Below, piece by piece: positions 18,514 through 62,785 of a stretch of 64,000 nucleotides of DNA. The notes under the pieces were generated by a model. The model was given only the letters and a program-made list of their open reading frames with translations, had not been told where the DNA came from and did no database searches. Position numbers and translations under genes: made by a program. Within the stretch, counting starts at the first letter, position 1. Every line of letters begins with the position of its first letter. Source of the stretch: a bacterium (GTDB lineage Bacteria > DRYD01); the NCBI GenBank assembly GCA_030549815.1, contig JAUQQQ010000003.1:23890-87889 (forward strand), in the 5' to 3' direction.

Positions 18514-20412
18514 TTACCCTATTTTTGCTACGTCTGTTGGTTTTATTTCATTTATTGCTGCATCAATTCTTGGCATAACGATTTTTGTCAGTAAGGATAC
18601 TACTTTTGAAGAGATATTTACAGCAGCTTGAGCGACTGTAGATGCAACATTCTTAAATATCTTGATGATTCGATTATCTTTAGCTTTTGCTTCTATAAGT
18701 TTCTTTACTGTTTCGTTAGATTTTTGAGCCACGCCTTGGATAAGATTTTGTGCTTTTTGTCTTACTTTTTGTTTTATTACAGCCAATTTGGATTTCCATC
18801 CTGGGATGTTTTGGAGTATTCTTTTTTTCAATTGATTTCTATCTATTTTTTTAGCATTTGCTTTGTTTCCTTGTTGTAGTTTAGCTAGTTCTTCATTTTC
18901 TTTTTCTCTTACATAATTGCTTAACTCGTTTCTTATTTGCCGTATTTCGTCTGCTATGCTTACGTTTCCGTCGACTTTAACAGAGCCGCCGACAGGTAGT
19001 TTTGATATATCAATTTCGGCGAAAGCGTTAAATTTTACGTTCCAATTATTAGTGTTTACTCTTGCTTCACTATAGTATCCAAAAGCACCTCCAAATCCTT
19101 CTGAGACACCTAAGCTGAATTCTGCGTTTATATTATCTTGGCCATTACTAAAGGATGTACTAACGCTACCATTTATGCCAGCTCCTAATCTTGCTGCACC
19201 ATAAATACCTCCTTTGGAGACTATTTCATCTCCTTGTCTTGATGTAGCTGATCCTACTTTAAGATTAGCTTCTGCATAAGCGGAGACAGAGACACTTCCG
19301 CCAAGTTTTGTAGATGAATTTCCATTTTTAATTTCTAATTCAGCTTGTTTTTTCTTTTCGGCGTTAGCAGACCCGCCTAATTCTGCGTAGTATTTATCTT
19401 TTTCTTTGATTATGTTGCCTTGACCTTGGAAGCCTGCGCTATAACTGTCTTTTAATTTACCACCTATGGATTTATCTCCTTGTTTATACTCTCCTTTAAT
19501 TTCATTTTCAAAACTTACGTTAGCATTAATTTGGGTACCTCGATTATATCTTTCTTTACTGATATACTCATATTTTTCGTGATTAAGATTAGCATCAAAA
19601 TTAGTTTCAAAGCCTCCGGAAACTTCGCCTTTGCCAACTTTCCTATAAAAGTTTACACCTGTTTTTCCATTAACGTTACCTTCGATTTCATTACTTCTGT
19701 AGAAATGCTCATCATCAACTTTTATTCTTGATCTTGAATTAAATCCAGCCTCAATGCTGGAATTTTGTTTAAATCCTGTGCTTCCATCTTTTGAATGGAC
19801 TTCAAATTCAGAGTTAAAGCCTGCCTTTCCATATGTTCTGTCATCAATTTCTGCTCCATTGTCTGAGTACTTAGCATGGATTTTTCTACTATATTCGAAG
19901 CTTGCTTCTCTGTGCTCTTTACCTTTTAGATATTCATTTTCGAATTCATTTTCGCTTTCGTAATTTCTTTTAATTCCTTCTTTCCATTCAAAATGTCTTG
20001 GGTCATTATTTTCCAAACTACCTGAATCCTTTTCGTATTCTTTATTGACAGAATTACTGTTGTAGTTATTGTTTTGATAGGTGTGGTTGGGGTAGTTGTC
20101 TTGATAGGTATAGTTGGGGTAGTTGTTTTGATAGGCGTAGTTAGGGTAGTTGTTTTGGTAAGTGTAGTCAGGGTAGTTGATGTTACCATAATCTGTATAG
20201 TACGGCAGAAAATTAGGAGCTATTGCTTGAGCTTCTTCTAAACTTAGACAAAGTAAAAATATCAGATAAATTAATTGTTGAATGCTATTTCTTATCATTC
20301 TCATTCTTTCTTCATCATTAACACAGTGACAAGAATTAATGTTTGTAACGTTGGTAACTTGGCTATTGTAAATCAGTATGTTTATATTAACCATATTATT
20401 GCCTATATACAT
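18514..20412 (-). CDS. Large secreted repeat-containing surface protein, unknown family
   Basis: 632 residues, not recognised. The start at 20412 has GGAGG 9 bases upstream. About 38 polar residues precede a hydrophobic export-type segment (about residues 45-57) ending at an AQA-like cleavage site, so the n-region is unusually long. Four 9-residue repeats of the form YPNYxYQNN follow (about residues 80-115), then a charged region and roughly 330 residues of Gly/Ser/Asn-rich beta-type sequence with alternating polar residues (for example GGSVSVSAYAEANLKVGSA), like outer-surface beta-solenoid proteins. The last 130 residues are lysine-rich amphipathic helix. Probably exported; a structural, adhesive or effector-like role is open. 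It stands alone between convergent tnaA and divergent hemQ. Confidence 0.7.
   Translation of the reverse strand: MYIGNNMVNINILIYNSQVTNVTNINSCHCVNDEERMRMIRNSIQQLIYLIFLLCLSLEEAQAIAPNFLPYYTDYGNINYPDYTYQNNYPNYAYQNNYPNYTYQDNYPNHTYQNNNYNSNSVNKEYEKDSGSLENNDPRHFEWKEGIKRNYESENEFENEYLKGKEHREASFEYSRKIHAKYSDNGAEIDDRTYGKAGFNSEFEVHSKDGSTGFKQNSSIEAGFNSRSRIKVDDEHFYRSNEIEGNVNGKTGVNFYRKVGKGEVSGGFETNFDANLNHEKYEYISKERYNRGTQINANVSFENEIKGEYKQGDKSIGGKLKDSYSAGFQGQGNIIKEKDKYYAELGGSANAEKKKQAELEIKNGNSSTKLGGSVSVSAYAEANLKVGSATSRQGDEIVSKGGIYGAARLGAGINGSVSTSFSNGQDNINAEFSLGVSEGFGGAFGYYSEARVNTNNWNVKFNAFAEIDISKLPVGGSVKVDGNVSIADEIRQIRNELSNYVREKENEELAKLQQGNKANAKKIDRNQLKKRILQNIPGWKSKLAVIKQKVRQKAQNLIQGVAQKSNETVKKLIEAKAKDNRIIKIFKNVASTVAQAAVNISSKVVSLLTKIVMPRIDAAINEIKPTDVAKIG
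20068..20175 (-). repeat. Four in-frame 27-bp tandem repeats
   Basis: Each unit encodes nine residues of the pattern YP(D/N)(Y/H)(T/A)YQ(N/D)N. The units differ by point changes, so they are not a very recent expansion. They lie just after the export signal of the secreted protein at 18514-20412. Confidence 0.9.
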
Positions 20413-20628
20413 ACCTTTTATCCTCCTTTTCTGTTTCTCCTTAATATAAAATGTACAAGAAAAACATAAATTAAAGAATAGGTAAAAAAAATTTACATTT
20501 TTTTTACATTTTTTTTTAATATTTTTTACAAAAATTTAATATTTCTAAAAATTTTTTAAATTTTTCTACTAACTCTTAAGCAAGGATGGGGTTGGTTTTT
20601 TTAGAATAATAAAATAAAGGGTGGTTTA
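20413..20628. promoter_or_regulatory. Divergent intergenic region with phased T-tracts
   Basis: 216 bases between the minus-strand secreted protein and plus-strand hemQ. It holds TTTACATTTTTTTTACATTT and further T-runs at roughly helical spacing (20498-20545 on the plus strand), as in curved promoter DNA. No coding sequence or hairpin terminator is seen. Promoters for both genes should lie here. Confidence 0.45.
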
Positions 20629-21276
20629 ATGAGAACTTTTGTTTTCTATTTTATTTTGGAAATAAAAAAATTTGATTCATTGAAAAAGGTTGTTGATGAA
20701 ATAAATAGTATTAATTTTGTTGAAAAAAGTTTATGGGTTTATCAGGTTTTCCCATTTAAAACTGCTGATATTCTTTTGTGGTTTAGTTTCGATTTTGAAA
20801 ATGAAGATATTTTGCCATCCATGCTAAGTAAAGTTTCTAGTATTTTTTATAAAGAAGGCGTAGTTCTAAGGGACGTTTTATGGGGGTTTACTAAGCCTTC
20901 TATCTATTCAAAAACCCAAAAATCTATGCAAGAAATAGATCCTTTCAGTAAAGATAGGAAAAAATATTTGATAGTTTATCCATTTGTTAAGACTGCTGAC
21001 TGGTATTTATTGAAACAAGACACGAGGCAAGGGATGATGAATGAACACATCAGAATAGGTAGACAGTATCCTTCTATTTTACAACTTTTACTTTATTGTT
21101 TTGGTTTATCCGATAATGAGTTTGTTGTATCTTACGAAACTGATTCAATTGTTGAATTTGAAAAATTGGTTTATGATTTAAGATCATCTGAAGCAAGGAA
21201 ATACACTCTAAGAGATACACCTATATATACTGGAGTTTTTAGAAAATTAGATGAATTTAAGGATATTTTGTTATGA
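20629..21276 (+). CDS. hemQ: Chlorite dismutase family / HemQ-type coproheme decarboxylase
   Basis: 215 residues. In HemQ the enzyme converts coproheme III to haem b, the last step of the coproporphyrin-dependent haem pathway. The C-terminal half shows the family pattern: YPFVKTADWYLL (about residue 122), MMNEHIRIGR with the proximal haem ligand His140, FVVSYETD and the diagnostic YTLRDTPIYTG near residue 200. The family also contains true chlorite dismutases, but the HemQ-like Tyr-containing segment and absence of a signal peptide favour haem synthesis. No other hem genes are adjacent. It overlaps the prenyl transferase start (ATGA), so the two are coupled. Confidence 0.82.
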   Translation: MRTFVFYFILEIKKFDSLKKVVDEINSINFVEKSLWVYQVFPFKTADILLWFSFDFENEDILPSMLSKVSSIFYKEGVVLRDVLWGFTKPSIYSKTQKSMQEIDPFSKDRKKYLIVYPFVKTADWYLLKQDTRQGMMNEHIRIGRQYPSILQLLLYCFGLSDNEFVVSYETDSIVEFEKLVYDLRSSEARKYTLRDTPIYTGVFRKLDEFKDILL

Positions 21277-34557: not shown

Positions 34558-34690
34558 TATAATTTTTAGTATAATTTTGTAAAAAAATTGTTAAAATTAA
34601 ATAAAATTTAAATTCTTCCACTGTTTATTGTTTATATATATAGGGAAGGGAGATGGATTTTTATAAAATTTATTATAGGGGGTGTTTTGT
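34558..34690 (+). promoter_or_regulatory. AT-rich gap upstream of flhB
   Basis: 133 bases, one of the few real gaps in the 33-kb gene train. It includes TTGTAAAAAAATTGTTAAAA at 34578-34597 and TTTATATATATAGGG further on, so a promoter for the flagellar genes is likely. No sigma-28 or sigma-54 box is clearly recognisable. Confidence 0.35.
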
Positions 34691-35782
34691 ATGTCTGAAG
34701 ATTCCGATAAAACTGAAGAGCCGACAGAGCATAAGTTGCAAGAGGCCCGCAAAAAGGGTCAAGTCCTGAAAAGTCAAGATGTAGTAATGTTTGTGGGAAT
34801 GGTAGCTACTTTTGCTGTCCTTTTTGCTTATTCTAAAGTCATGGCTTCAAAAGTCGCAGAATTCGCAAGAGATTTGTATATGGGTGAAGTTTTTAGGAAT
34901 GCTGTTAATGCCGATAATCTCCTTGCTTTTTTAGCTTCTGTCTTTATTAAATCTCTTATTCTTTTTGCTTTAGTTCTAATGCCTATTGCTATTGTTGCTA
35001 TGTTGGCTGGTTTAATTGGTAATTTAGCTCAGATAGGTTTTCTTTTCACTTTTGAGCCACTATCCCCTAAATTCAGTAAGATTAATCCTGTTGAAGGTTT
35101 TAAAAGAATATTTTCAAGGAAATCAGTTGTCGAGTTGGTTAAAAACGCACTAAAAATTGGTGTTATTTCATATTTAGTCTATTTAATCATCAAAGGTAAC
35201 GAAAAACTGTTTATTGATTTTTCACGAACTTGGGATTTTATTCCTTTTTTGGTAGAGTTTAGGAAAATCATAGAAAAGATGGTTTGGCAGGTCATTGGTG
35301 TTTTTGTTTTACTTGCTGCTTTCGATTACATGATTCAAAGAAAATTTTTTATGAAAGATATGAGGATGTCTTTTAAGGAATTAAAGGATGAATATAAGGA
35401 GTTAGAGGGTGATCCTCATGTTAAGAGTAAGAGGAGGCATATGGCTCAGCAGCTGGCTATGGGAGGGGGTATTGGTAGGGTCCAAGATGCAACCGCTGTT
35501 GTTACAAATCCTGTGCATTATGCCGTAGCTTTGAAATATGAGCATGGTAAGATGCAGGCACCACAGGTGGTTGCTAAAGGTGAAAGATACTTTGCTGAAT
35601 TGATAAAAACTATTGCAGAAAAAAGCGATATACCTATCGTTGAAAATGTTGAATTAGCTCAATTATTGTATTCCAAATGTAAGGTTGGAGATTATATTCC
35701 TACAGAGCTTTATCAGGCAACTGCTGAAGTTTTAGCTTTTGTTTATAAAATGAAAAAGAAGAAAAAAATAATAGGAAGGTAG
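34691..35782 (+). CDS. flhB: Flagellar export apparatus protein FlhB
   Basis: Inner-membrane switch of the flagellar type III export gate. 363 residues from ATG 34691 behind GGGGGGTG (GTG 34682 is also in frame). SEDSDKTEEPTEHKLQEARKKGQ is typical of the FlhB start; four membrane helices follow between about residues 28 and 210; the cytoplasmic domain carries the autocleavage site as NPVH at 273-276, where nearly all members have NPTH. The following HYAVALKYEHGKMQAPQVVAKG is canonical. flhA follows after 7 bases. Confidence 0.97.
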   Translation: MSEDSDKTEEPTEHKLQEARKKGQVLKSQDVVMFVGMVATFAVLFAYSKVMASKVAEFARDLYMGEVFRNAVNADNLLAFLASVFIKSLILFALVLMPIAIVAMLAGLIGNLAQIGFLFTFEPLSPKFSKINPVEGFKRIFSRKSVVELVKNALKIGVISYLVYLIIKGNEKLFIDFSRTWDFIPFLVEFRKIIEKMVWQVIGVFVLLAAFDYMIQRKFFMKDMRMSFKELKDEYKELEGDPHVKSKRRHMAQQLAMGGGIGRVQDATAVVTNPVHYAVALKYEHGKMQAPQVVAKGERYFAELIKTIAEKSDIPIVENVELAQLLYSKCKVGDYIPTELYQATAEVLAFVYKMKKKKKIIGR

Positions 35783-35789
35783 GGGATTT

Positions 35790-37946
35790 ATGTTAGGTGT
35801 TGGGCAATCTATAAATGTAGGTGGACAGAAAATTCCTTTGGATGTTTTTATCCCCATAGCTATCTTGTTGGCTGTCTTATTAATTATAGTCGAGTTACCG
35901 CCTTTTCTTTTGGATACTTTGCTTATTACTGATCTAATTGTCTCTATATTAATTATATTAATGGCTGTTTATGTTAAAAGCCCATTAGATTTTGCTGTAT
36001 TCCCTACGTTGGTATTGGTTGAAACCATATTTCGTTTGGGTATAAATATTGCTGCTACGAGGTTGATATTGGCAAGGGGTCATATAAAGGATCCAAGAAG
36101 TGGCGAACCTATAGGTGCGGGTCACGTAATTCCTACTTTTGCAAAGTTTGTAGCAGGTGGAAATCTTGTTATAGGTTTTGTTTTGTTTTTGATGATAGTT
36201 GTGGTTCAGTTTATAGTGATAACCCAGGGTGCTGAGCGTATTGCTCAAGTTGCTGCGAGGTTTACTTTGGATGCTATGCCAGGTAAGCAAATGGCTATCG
36301 ATGGAGAATTGCATGCAGGTCTTATAACTCCTGAAGAGGCAAGAAGAAGAAGAAGAGAAATAGAGAGAGAAACCGATTTCTATGGTGCGATGGATGGTGT
36401 TGGAAAGTTCGTTAAAGGCGATACTATCGCTAATATAATTATTCTTGCTATTAGTATTATTGGTGGTATATTGATGGGATTTACTTATTTTAGATCATAT
36501 TTTGAAGGATCAGAAAAGGGGATGATAATTGATATTTTGGAGACTTATACTATTTTAACGATTGGTAATGGTTTGGTCTCTATATTGCCTTCATTTTTGG
36601 TATCTACTGCAATGGGTATAATAGTTTCTCGTGCTGCTTCTGAATCTAATCTTGGCGAGGATGTGATAAGTCAATTAACTGGTCAGCCGAGAGCTTTACA
36701 GATTGCTGCGGGGGCTTCCGCTACTCTTGCTTTACTTTCTTTGTTAGGTATGGGATTACCTATACTTCCTTTGCTTGGTTTTGCTGGTTTATTCTTTTTC
36801 TTATCTATGAGAGCAAAACAACAAGAAGTGCAGAAGGAAATAGTTAAAGAAGAAGTTAAAAAGGAGCAAAGGAAAGAGGAACAAAGAAAACCTGAGAATG
36901 CCATGGTTTATACTACCGTTGAAACTCTTTCTCTTGAGTTGGGAAGAATGCTTTTGGGATTGGTTGATGAGCAACAAGGAAGGAAATTATTAGAAAGGAT
37001 TCCTTCTGTTAGGATTAGTATTGCAAAAGAAGTTGGTATAGTGATGCCTGGGGTCCACGTAACTGACAACATGGATTTGAAGCCAACCTCTTATGTTGTT
37101 AAGATTAAGGGAGTTAAAGTAGGTCAAGGAGAAGCTCATATAAATAAGTTTTTAGCAATAGGTCCTGAAAATGTCATAAGGCAACTTAACGGGAATGTAA
37201 CAATCGAGCCTGCGTTTGGTATGCCTGCTGTTTGGATAGAACCTCAGGATAAGCCTCAAGCTGAAAGGTTGGGATGCATGTTGTTTGATGCCGTATCTGT
37301 TATTGCTTCACACTTAACTGAGATAGTAAAAAATAATGCAGCTGATATTCTGGGAAGACAAGAAACTAGTATTTTGGTTGAAAATTTAAAGAAGACTCAT
37401 CCTGCTGTTGTTAAAGATGTTATACCTGAACAAATAAGTATAGGTGAATTGCAAAGGGTTTTACAAAACTTGCTAAGGGAAAGAATACCAGTAAGAGATT
37501 TGATAACGATAATAGAGTCATTGGTTGATGCTGTAAGATATACTCGGGATATTGCAGAATTAACTGAATTTGTTAGAATAGGTTTAGCAAATTCTATATC
37601 TTACATGTTAGCAAAGGATAGTGTTATATATGCTGCTGCTGTTGATCCTCAGGTAGAGCAAGTAATTTTAAATAGTTTGCAAAAGAATGAGTTTGGAACA
37701 TTCCCTGTTTTGGATCCAAACATTAGTCAAGCAATATTAATGTCTGTAGCAGAGTTTATGAGATTTGCAACTAATAATGGATATCAACCTGTAATAATAA
37801 CATCTCCCACGGTAAGAAGACATTTCAGGAAAATAATAGAGAGAAATTTCGGACAAATCTTTGTTATATCATTTGCTGAAGTTGCTTCTAATTACCAAAT
37901 TAAAAATATCTACCTTATTAAGGTTGAAGTTCCAAGTGAAGTATGA
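35790..37946 (+). CDS. flhA: Flagellar export gate protein FlhA
   Basis: Main membrane component of the export gate and docking platform for chaperone-substrate complexes. 718 residues, normal. N-terminal half with eight predicted helices and the FHIPEP signature (RFTLDAMPGKQMAIDGELHAGLITPEEARRRR is split here as RFTLDAMPGKQMAIDG and AGLITPEEARRRRREI). A charged linker (about 345-375) leads into the cytoplasmic domain with ERIPSVRISIAKE and QDKPQAERLGC. The stop overlaps the next start by ATGA. Confidence 0.97.
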   Translation: MLGVGQSINVGGQKIPLDVFIPIAILLAVLLIIVELPPFLLDTLLITDLIVSILIILMAVYVKSPLDFAVFPTLVLVETIFRLGINIAATRLILARGHIKDPRSGEPIGAGHVIPTFAKFVAGGNLVIGFVLFLMIVVVQFIVITQGAERIAQVAARFTLDAMPGKQMAIDGELHAGLITPEEARRRRREIERETDFYGAMDGVGKFVKGDTIANIIILAISIIGGILMGFTYFRSYFEGSEKGMIIDILETYTILTIGNGLVSILPSFLVSTAMGIIVSRAASESNLGEDVISQLTGQPRALQIAAGASATLALLSLLGMGLPILPLLGFAGLFFFLSMRAKQQEVQKEIVKEEVKKEQRKEEQRKPENAMVYTTVETLSLELGRMLLGLVDEQQGRKLLERIPSVRISIAKEVGIVMPGVHVTDNMDLKPTSYVVKIKGVKVGQGEAHINKFLAIGPENVIRQLNGNVTIEPAFGMPAVWIEPQDKPQAERLGCMLFDAVSVIASHLTEIVKNNAADILGRQETSILVENLKKTHPAVVKDVIPEQISIGELQRVLQNLLRERIPVRDLITIIESLVDAVRYTRDIAELTEFVRIGLANSISYMLAKDSVIYAAAVDPQVEQVILNSLQKNEFGTFPVLDPNISQAILMSVAEFMRFATNNGYQPVIITSPTVRRHFRKIIERNFGQIFVISFAEVASNYQIKNIYLIKVEVPSEV

Positions 37947-60944: not shown

Positions 60945-61751
60945 TTAATTTTTTTCAGGAGTAGGGGCCCCTTCTTTTGGGGTAGGGACCTCTTCTTGTG
61001 GAGTGGGGGACCCTTCCATAGAGTTTTCTTTCTTTTGTTTTTCTAATTGGGATAATTTATTAACTACAGCGCCTAAAACTCCGCCGATAACTCCACCTAC
61101 AGCTGCTCCCATTAATCCACCTAATATCATATGTTGTGCATAACTGACTCCTGTTTCAAATTTTACAACAGGTTTTTGATATGTGTCTATGACCTTGTAA
61201 TCTATTTTGGGATAAAATCTAACCCAATATCCGTCGATATCTTCGTAACATCTTTCTACAGTTTTATATTCTTCATCATAATAGTCATATTCTTCTGTTG
61301 TGTAACAATCTGTATCACTATCTTCCCATATTGATTGAGAGTATCCATTGAATGTAGGTTCTTTTACTTCTTTTGTTTCGTAATTAACCAAAGGTTTACC
61401 ATGTCCTTGGAAGGTTTGTTGGTATTCTTTGTAAATTACATTACCGTTTTTATCTTTTAGAGGCACTTTTTCGTATACGGGTTCTGTTGGGGTAGTATTT
61501 ACTGAGTTCAAAGGCCAAGAAGGCACATATTGGTTTTTAGGTATTTTTCCTATTTCTTTAGTTTCATAAACAGGTTCTTTAATATTTAAAGTGACACTTT
61601 CAACAGGTAAAGCTTTAACTTTTTTATTTGCTTCTATGGCTCCGAGGATTATGCCTGTGGCTCCACCAACGCCAGCCCCAATTGTTGCTCCTTTCAAGAT
61701 GGAATCACCTAATTTGGGTTTATCAGAGTAAAGGTTACTTTTTATTTGCAT
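60945..61751 (-). CDS. Glycine-zipper protein, paralogue 1 (unknown family)
   Basis: 268 residues, no signal peptide. Two glycine-zipper hydrophobic segments flank the protein: ILKGATIGAGVGGATGIIL (about 18-36) and ILGGLMGAAVGGVIGGVLG (about 210-228), each followed by a lysine cluster (AIEANKKVK, KLSQLEKQKK). The 170-residue middle has repeated patterns VYETKEIGKIPK and VYEKVPLKDKNGNVIYKE, and a Cys pair in DCYTTEE and ERCYED. The C-terminal tail repeats PTPxEE three times. Ribosome site GGAGGTGAAAGG before the ATG. 60-bp start region is nearly identical to paralogue 2. No known family assigned; resembles glycine-zipper 2TM proteins. Confidence 0.7.
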   Translation of the reverse strand: MQIKSNLYSDKPKLGDSILKGATIGAGVGGATGIILGAIEANKKVKALPVESVTLNIKEPVYETKEIGKIPKNQYVPSWPLNSVNTTPTEPVYEKVPLKDKNGNVIYKEYQQTFQGHGKPLVNYETKEVKEPTFNGYSQSIWEDSDTDCYTTEEYDYYDEEYKTVERCYEDIDGYWVRFYPKIDYKVIDTYQKPVVKFETGVSYAQHMILGGLMGAAVGGVIGGVLGAVVNKLSQLEKQKKENSMEGSPTPQEEVPTPKEGAPTPEKN

Positions 61752-61994
61752 ATCCTTTCACCTCCCTATCTTTTAATCAATAAAAATTATTAAATAAAGG
61801 GGAGAAAAAGGTGGTATAAAAATGTTAAAAAGATGTAAAAAATAGGGATTAAAGAAGAGTGGAATCAAGAAAAGTTTTAAAATATGTAAAAAGGGATTTT
61901 TGTGGTTTCTATGTATAGAAACAGAAAGATCCTTTATTCGTATTATTAGTAACAGCATTAGTTATTTGCTATTATTTGATTTGAGAATTTTCTT
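61752..61994 (-). promoter_or_regulatory. Upstream region of glycine-zipper paralogue 1 with inverted repeat
   Basis: 243 bases. Contains the ACAT/T-tract element and, at 61905-61922, a perfect palindrome GTTTCTAT-GT-ATAGAAAC (8-base arms). The palindrome could be an operator or, on the minus strand, the end of the paralogue 2 message. Other T-tracts lie at roughly helical spacing. Confidence 0.4.
61820..61840 (-). promoter_or_regulatory. ACAT/T-tract element upstream of glycine-zipper paralogue 1
   Basis: On the minus strand: TTTACATCTTTTTAACATTT then TTATACC. Two ACAT units are 11 bases apart, so they face the same side of the helix. Matches the element of paralogue 2. Confidence 0.5.
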
Positions 61995-62699
61995 TTATTT
62001 TTCTAATTGGGATAATTTATGAACGATAGTACCAACGACACCGCCAATGATTCCACCTGCAGCTGCCCCTACTAAGCCTCCTAATATCATATGTCCTCCG
62101 TAACTAACCCCTGTTTGAAATTTAACAACTGGTTTTCCATACGTATCTATAACTTTATAGTCTATATCAGGATAAAATTTAATCCAATATCCTACAACAT
62201 ATTTTTGGCATACTTCTTCTTCTCCATTTGTATAGCAATTTGTTTTAGTATCTTCGAACACTTCGTAATCGTATCCATTAAATATTGGTTCAAATACTGC
62301 TCCTCCTCGTGGATCGTATTGAACAACTGGTTTACCATGTCCTTGGAAGGTTTGTTGGTGTTCTTTGTAAATTACATTACCGTTTTCATCTTTTAAAGGA
62401 ACTTTTTCATATACAGGTTTTGTAGGAATATCATAAATATCTTTCCATCCATTCCATCCGGGCCAGTCTTTCACATACTTATCTTCTGGTATTTTTCCTA
62501 TTTCTTTTGTTTCATAAAGAGGTTCTTTAAAAGTTACAGTAACGCTTTCGATCGGTAAGGAGTTTACTTTTTTATCTGCTTCCATATATCCTACAACCAT
62601 ACCAGTAAATGCTCCAATACCAGCCCCAATTGTTGCTCCTTTCAAGATGGAATCACCTAATTTGGGTTTGTCAGAGTAAAGGTTGCTTTTTATTTGCAT
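61995..62699 (-). CDS. Glycine-zipper protein, paralogue 2 (unknown family)
   Basis: 234 residues, same architecture as 60945-61751 without its proline-rich tail. First 23 residues identical (MQIKSNLYSDKPKLGDSILKG...). Zippers at GATIGAGIGAFTGMVVG and ILGGLVGAAAGGIIGGVVG. The middle keeps VYEKVPLKDENGNVIYKE, QTFQGHGKPVV and the two Cys residues (NCYTNGEEEVCQ). YWIKFYPDIDYKVIDTYGKPVVKFQTGVSYG is conserved in both (quoted in parts: YPDIDYKVIDTYGKPVV). Probably inserts in the membrane by the two zippers, with the middle on one side; orientation is unknown. Confidence 0.7.
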   Translation of the reverse strand: MQIKSNLYSDKPKLGDSILKGATIGAGIGAFTGMVVGYMEADKKVNSLPIESVTVTFKEPLYETKEIGKIPEDKYVKDWPGWNGWKDIYDIPTKPVYEKVPLKDENGNVIYKEHQQTFQGHGKPVVQYDPRGGAVFEPIFNGYDYEVFEDTKTNCYTNGEEEVCQKYVVGYWIKFYPDIDYKVIDTYGKPVVKFQTGVSYGGHMILGGLVGAAAGGIIGGVVGTIVHKLSQLEK

Positions 62700-62763: not shown

Positions 62764-62785
62764 AAAAATGTTAAAAAAATGTAAA
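62764..62785 (-). promoter_or_regulatory. ACAT/T-tract element upstream of glycine-zipper paralogue 2
   Basis: On the minus strand: TTTACATTTTTTTAACATTT then TTACAG. Two ACAT units spaced 11-12 bases. Further T-tracts extend upstream to 62825, likely giving curved DNA. Confidence 0.5.

Follow-up and report, generated by a model that had tools for sequence, protein, structure and literature searches.

Two glycine-zipper proteins of Calescibacterota share an upstream repeat with flagellar-type export genes and are possibly secreted

What is the role of two adjacent, related genes whose products carry a glycine zipper towards either end? The genes, designated A and B, lie in a window of 64,000 nucleotides (contig JAUQQQ010000003.1 of assembly GCA_030549815.1, positions 23,890 to 87,889) from a hot-spring bacterium of the phylum Calescibacterota, Candidatus Calescibacterium lineage. 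An initial annotation, made from the letters of this window, had pointed to two neighbouring open reading frames (ORFs) here as a candidate envelope system, and both were recovered, each preceded by a strong Shine-Dalgarno sequence:

61995..62699, minus strand: gene A, 234 aa, encoding a disordered N-terminal motif, zipper helix 1, a beta domain and zipper helix 2
60945..61751, minus strand: gene B, 268 aa, a paralogue of A that is extended at its C-terminus by 30 Pro/Glu-rich residues

Their products are 69% identical, and the DNA upstream of A resembles that upstream of B over about 100 bp. We propose, with a probability of about 0.45, that a flagellar type III secretion regulon includes A and B, which are probably exported, membrane-inserting two-helix proteins of a family specific to Calescibacterota.

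The evidence starts from a 17-bp direct repeat, TTWACA-N5-TTWACA, located approximately 70 bp before the start codons of both A and B. The exact 17-mer pattern occurs four times in the window, as compared with 0.28 expected copies, and none of 100 shuffles reached four:

62769..62785, minus strand: direct repeat TTTACATTTTTTTAACA, 69 bp upstream of A
61823..61839, minus strand: direct repeat TTTACATCTTTTTAACA, 71 bp upstream of B
34578..34594, minus strand: reverse-oriented copy of the repeat, 96 bp upstream of flhB
20492..20508, plus strand: fourth copy, in the divergent intergenic region between the genes at 18514-20412 (minus strand) and 20629-21276 (plus strand)

Among the family genes, TTWACA half-sites 10-11 bp apart occur about 60-105 bp upstream in five of eight, and the repeat is kept upstream of members in genome G005 and in the distant genome G006. 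In the sampled loci, a same-orientation repeat preceded 5/8 family genes and 5/67 other genes (Fisher p = 7e-4), a value that overstates independence because the eight family genes are related; the carriers outside the family are flagellar genes or, for the most part, candidates for export. The comparison is otherwise conservative, since the background of 67 mixed genes, all with at least 100 bp upstream, includes flagellar loci. Nine background genes carry the repeat in either orientation: flagellar genes, clostripain-like genes and genes of unknown function, with several of the last group lacking a Sec signal. On a genome scale, the pattern exceeded its reversed control in G000 (72 vs 35), G002 (47 vs 12) and G003 (56 vs 11), and a tighter pattern gave 55 vs 28 in G000, where most copies read TTWACATTTTTTTWACA and are followed, in either orientation and at a distance of 45-110 bp, by an ORF that has a Shine-Dalgarno sequence. 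The element list was compiled from pattern searches and fetched stretches, with the false-positive rate per element known from these counts only.

The reverse-oriented copy in the window precedes two genes for the type III export gate:

34682..35782, plus strand: flhB, export gate component, with a more likely start at 34691
35790..37946, plus strand: flhA, export gate component (PF00771, E 7.8e-227)

The repeat heads four flagellar operons: flhBA; fliH, fliI and fliJ behind a gene for a 100-aa protein (L252); fliF (L263, genome G004); and transglycosylase-fliK-flgF-flgG, where it is exact before the transglycosylase gene in G004 (L264) and present as a 12-bp-period variant in G000. Co-regulation of A and B with a flagellar-type export machine is thus well supported at the level of sequence. 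Genes for the export gate, the ATPase complex and the rod were seen at L250, L251 and L252, as well as at 34682-37946 of the window. FlhA occurs in all seven genomes of the phylum, and each of the five better genomes yielded four rod-protein matches (FlgB, FlgC, FlgF/FlgG type). No FlgE-like hook protein was seen as a fifth match beside these four, and flagellin (PF00669) gave no match over the cut-off in the seven genomes, with controls behaving as expected; incomplete assemblies or divergent sequences are possible causes of both negatives. A FliK-like protein is present, scoring below its Pfam cut-off, and speaks for some rod- or needle-length control. An earlier study of this group, from 2016, listed flagellar genes and inferred motility (PMC4791363), which we question because hook and flagellin are missing.

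What else does the repeat control? Downstream of it lie genes for enzymes of several kinds, namely S8 subtilases, C11 clostripains, M14 carboxypeptidases, an acid phosphatase, a PLD-like enzyme, an EEP nuclease and arginine deiminases (clostripain-like proteins included; L216, L217, L218, L221, L232, L234, L236, L239, L242 and L247 in G000; L253, L259, L262 and L266 in G004), and others for EF-hand and coiled-coil proteins. The enzymes lack a Sec signal or hydrophobic N-terminus, and the catalytic domain of the subtilases, of most clostripains and of the carboxypeptidase begins only at residue 50-134, behind a polar leader. Among proteins without a hydrophobic N-terminus, those of the regulon were richer in Asn over their first 30 residues (0.129 vs 0.072, p = 2e-4) and contained fewer N-terminal hydrophobic residues (p = 1e-4).

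Several further genes with the repeat deserve mention in their own right. Three small proteins of 92-100 aa, probably helical and with W-x-KAL near the C-terminus, are encoded at L215:1145-1420 (minus strand), L257:1599-1889 (plus strand) and L252:18185-18484 (minus strand), one of them ahead of fliHIJ; a role as needle- or filament-like subunits is conceivable. At L251:13447-14546, two adjacent related proteins (MDMSVNNVERGSKITFKG... and MNEVKITNKIKLESKITFKG...) contain Gly/Ala-rich stretches, and the repeat stands upstream of the first; the two may represent another family of regulon members that insert into membranes. Pilin-like genes carry the repeat at L204, L244, L210:893-1435 (minus strand), L220 and L229, and pilus functions may thus be combined with flagellar export in one regulon. 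In the window, the fourth copy stands 79 bp upstream of the gene at 18514-20412 (minus strand), which encodes a large repetitive protein of 632 aa that may start internally and be exported by Sec; proteins at L237 and L199 resemble it by eye.

The family to which A and B belong has full-length members in 6/7 Calescibacterota genomes, the genome without one being the least complete (71%). No relatives outside the phylum were found among 386 genomes spread across the domain or in two scans of 85,462 species genomes, at the sensitivity used, and the family thus appears confined to Calescibacterota. The eight full-length members have a common layout of motif, zipper, beta domain and zipper, which in A and B maps as follows:

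62676..62699, minus strand: A residues 1-8, MQIKSNLY, the N-terminal motif
61728..61751, minus strand: B residues 1-8, motif as in A
62577..62648, minus strand: A zipper helix 1, residues 18-41, with invariant G25/G29/G33/G37
62019..62093, minus strand: A zipper helix 2, residues 203-227, with invariant G211/G215/G219/G220
61629..61700, minus strand: B zipper helix 1, residues 18-41
61059..61133, minus strand: B zipper helix 2, residues 207-231
62208..62237, minus strand: A segment from C155 to C164, a Cys pair missing from two family members

The zipper glycines listed for A are invariant in 8/8 aligned members, as are the elements KxPxY, IGxIP, KDxxGxVxY, TFxxxGKP, VxEP, GxW and IDTY. The motifs PVYEKVPLKD and FQGHGKP, described as conserved in the initial annotation, are exact within the genus and relax to PVxxxVPVKD and F[QTS][GD][HL]GKP across the family. 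The Cys pair (C155/C164 in A, C149/C168 in B), likewise reported as conserved, is absent from two of the eight members (G005 C41 and G006); it is therefore no family feature, and we discarded it as a defining disulfide.

The N-terminus reads MQIKSNLYSDKPKLGDSILK, with no hydrophobic stretch before residue 17, and the N-terminal regions of A and B contain no Cys and therefore no lipobox, in agreement with the earlier statement that signal peptide and lipobox are lacking. Its motif, with consensus M-x-[IL]-[KN]-x-N-L-[FY], recurs in the phylum on zipper proteins that are different otherwise, including more distant ones that combine it with glycine-rich helices and a different middle (G000 C18, G003 C122, G005 C122, G002 C8 and G002 C33). 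We considered and rejected a flagellin-like nature for this motif, as no flagellin was found and the rod proteins lack it. On G003 C122, three zipper proteins stand in tandem, at least one apparently broken, and several copies on G002 C8, G003 C44 and G004 C45 contain stops or frameshifts. Tandem or decayed motif-bearing copies at L118:3193-5091, L012, L013 and L011 suggest frequent duplication and loss.

Pfam and NCBIfam models match the zippers only, and weakly: PF13488 scores 26.4 bits for A, just over its cut-off of 25, and 19.8 bits for B, which fails, whereas PF05433 reaches 14.9 and 7.8 bits, respectively, against a cut-off of 24.2. That the pair fits no known family, as first suspected, is supported, and A and B are a previously undescribed kind of protein, probably membrane-associated. 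Two other origins were dismissed. Viral-contig candidates encode no relative, and PHROG matches are weak and probably driven by the zippers; PADLOC models gave no match at E <= 1, which speaks against a role in anti-phage defence.

How would such proteins be built? An AlphaFold2 model of A from eight sequences (mean predicted local distance difference test, pLDDT, 81; predicted template modelling score, pTM, 0.52) places a helix at residues 14-47, a beta domain at 50-195 and a second helix at 200-233, with the middle of about 155 residues between the zippers all-beta and residues 1-10, at pLDDT < 50, forming a short disordered N-terminus. The member from G006, the most distant genome, was modelled with the same layout; at a pTM of 0.52-0.54, the placement of the helices relative to the beta domain is not fixed by the models. 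In both models the zippers remain two separate helices flanking the beta domain. Of the membrane hairpin proposed initially, the two zipper helices hold, but they are spaced as helix-beta-helix and are not adjacent as in the 17-kDa antigen and 2TM proteins. No significant structural relatives were detected in the Protein Data Bank (PDB) or in a viral structure library.

The zipper helices scored 1.8 to 4.2 (first helix) and -0.1 to 1.6 (second helix), as compared with -3.9 to -2.9 for the strongest segments of FlhA, FtsK and HtrA, on an approximate scale of unweighted 19-residue sums, without length or position correction, where higher means less hydrophobic. Such weak predicted hydrophobicity is in line with type III-exported membrane proteins, which are reported to have intermediate hydrophobicity and must avoid the inner-membrane pathway (PMC6110835).

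Under the proposal that A and B are exported, the N-terminal motif would act as a type III export signal, a role backed, we infer, by its disorder, its reuse on otherwise different proteins and the regulon membership. The weakly hydrophobic zipper helices would escape inner-membrane targeting and, after export, both would insert into the outer or a target membrane, where the helices would pack and oligomerise through their zippers and the beta domain would project on one side. A and B could then provide the co-regulated enzymes with a surface anchor, a pore or a translocon. Export, oligomerisation and pore formation are all predictions at this stage. No cognate chaperone was recognised beside A or B, although no systematic search was made. 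A wider version, which we regard as unlikely, takes the flagellum without hook and filament as a dedicated secretion machine, with one regulator site controlling the machine, some 20 or more enzymes and other proteins that lack signal peptides, and the zipper family, and with A and B as its exported translocon or surface anchor.

Several observations weigh against export. The motif is absent from the rod proteins, whose export is certain, and is therefore not a universal export signal. The repeat is exact in some family members only, two having a 21-22-bp spacing and one a single half-site, and the zipper proteins on G000 C18 and G005 C122 also have one half-site only. A weaker Asn excess continues further into the regulon proteins, so the enrichment is partly protein-wide and serves as supporting evidence only. 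Pilin-like and a few Sec-type proteins also belong to the regulon, indicating that the repeat alone does not mark export. Finally, the tails of A are slightly positive and its loop acidic, which would suit a resident inner-membrane protein too.

This last arrangement is a serious contender, and we hold it nearly as likely as export. A and B would reside in the inner membrane with cytoplasmic termini and a periplasmic beta domain, forming a zipper homo-oligomer that acts as channel or scaffold for the secretion machine under the same regulator. The modelled beta domain flanked by two membrane-compatible helices agrees with it, as does the charge pattern of A, with about +1 on each tail and -6 in the loop (the extended C-tail of B is about neutral). 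For two family members, moreover, the top Foldseek matches in the PDB were to the chloride channel PAC/ASOR/TMEM206, which has a transmembrane helix on either side of a beta domain. These matches are weak (E 0.038 and 0.0066, TM-scores about 0.15-0.2), and a profile search of PDB sequences found no solved homologue and no PAC chain up to E 10, so that they amount to a resemblance in layout, with homology not shown. The hydrophobicity of the zipper helices is low for inner-membrane anchors, and residence leaves unexplained why a disordered N-terminal motif is conserved on otherwise different zipper proteins.

It is rather improbable that A and B represent ordinary envelope proteins with glycine zippers under a broad OmpR/PhoB-type regulator, for which the repeat would be a putative site and whose regulon, for instance in starvation, would include flagellar, pilus and hydrolase genes incidentally. 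OmpR-family sites are 11-bp direct repeats, as in the PhoP box of Bacillus subtilis, and the repeat has this form; its targets include several scavenging enzymes as well as pilus-like and Sec-type genes. However, subtilases and clostripains of a starvation response would be expected to have Sec signals, which these lack, and the site is common to four separate flagellar operons. Least credible by far is an antagonistic pore or bacteriocin-like toxin against competing cells, which the weak, zipper-only matches to bacteriocin models and the duplicated and decayed copies, as of diversifying weapons, would suit, but for which no immunity partner, double-glycine leader or transporter gene was recognised nearby and the beta domain is too strongly conserved across the phylum.

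Several known systems resemble A and B in part. Like the glycine-zipper 2TM/Omp/YMGG proteins (PF05433, PF13488, PF13441; SlyB, 17-kDa antigen), they have Gly at every fourth residue in helices of membrane length, but they lack a lipobox, their zippers lie about 155 residues apart with a beta domain between, and B fails every cut-off. SipB/AopB-type translocators, SseF and chlamydial Inc proteins share with them few, moderately hydrophobic segments, no Sec signal, a disordered N-terminus and genes co-regulated with a type III system; in A and B, by contrast, no sequence relationship to these was found, a beta domain separates the helices, the machine is flagellar and not an injectisome, and export is predicted. 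The PAC/ASOR/TMEM206 channel has the topology of the two family models, with a match significant neither by E-value nor by TM-score and none in sequence. YplA of Yersinia is an enzyme exported by the flagellar type III system through a signal in its first 20 residues (PMC2764114), and here too enzymes without Sec signals are tied to a flagellar export apparatus; the Calescibacterota case differs in involving an entire set of enzymes and a thermophile phylum with no hook protein or flagellin detected. Filament-less basal bodies of Buchnera, proposed to be a secretion machine (PMC8109811), likewise keep export gate and rod genes without flagellin, but in an endosymbiont and with hook genes kept in many lineages, whereas the present case comes with a regulon of candidate substrates.

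The genes around A and B proved less informative. The initial annotation had suggested checking co-occurrence with HtrA, M48, cmk and MreC-like neighbours, which did not recur in other genomes; members elsewhere adjoin lspA/uvrB, moaC and a metallohydrolase gene, or an alcohol dehydrogenase gene. With no flanking genes in common, gene order is uninformative, and no direct evidence was found for the envelope-stress role also put forward. The informative context, judged from sequence, is the promoter element held in common with the flagellar type III export genes. As to the divergence of the pair, the uneven DNA identity first noticed was confirmed over conserved residues (A numbering), with 41/44 identical codons in codons 1-25 and 105-129 as compared with 70/110 elsewhere (Fisher p = 1.2e-4). 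This distribution fits patchy local gene conversion, as originally proposed, and constraint at the nucleotide level may be an alternative cause.

The chief reason for interest is the regulon tying A and B to a flagellar secretion system that is possibly filament-less. Should co-regulation alone hold, it would give the A and B family its first functional context, and the published inference of flagellar swimming would still be questioned. If the proposal of export is true, a deep-branching thermophile phylum secretes exoenzymes through a flagellar export gate, and a non-pathogenic flagellum has been reworked into a secretion system, which would bear on the origin of the injectisome; the 17-bp site and the N-terminal motif would then together provide a practical key for listing candidate substrates.
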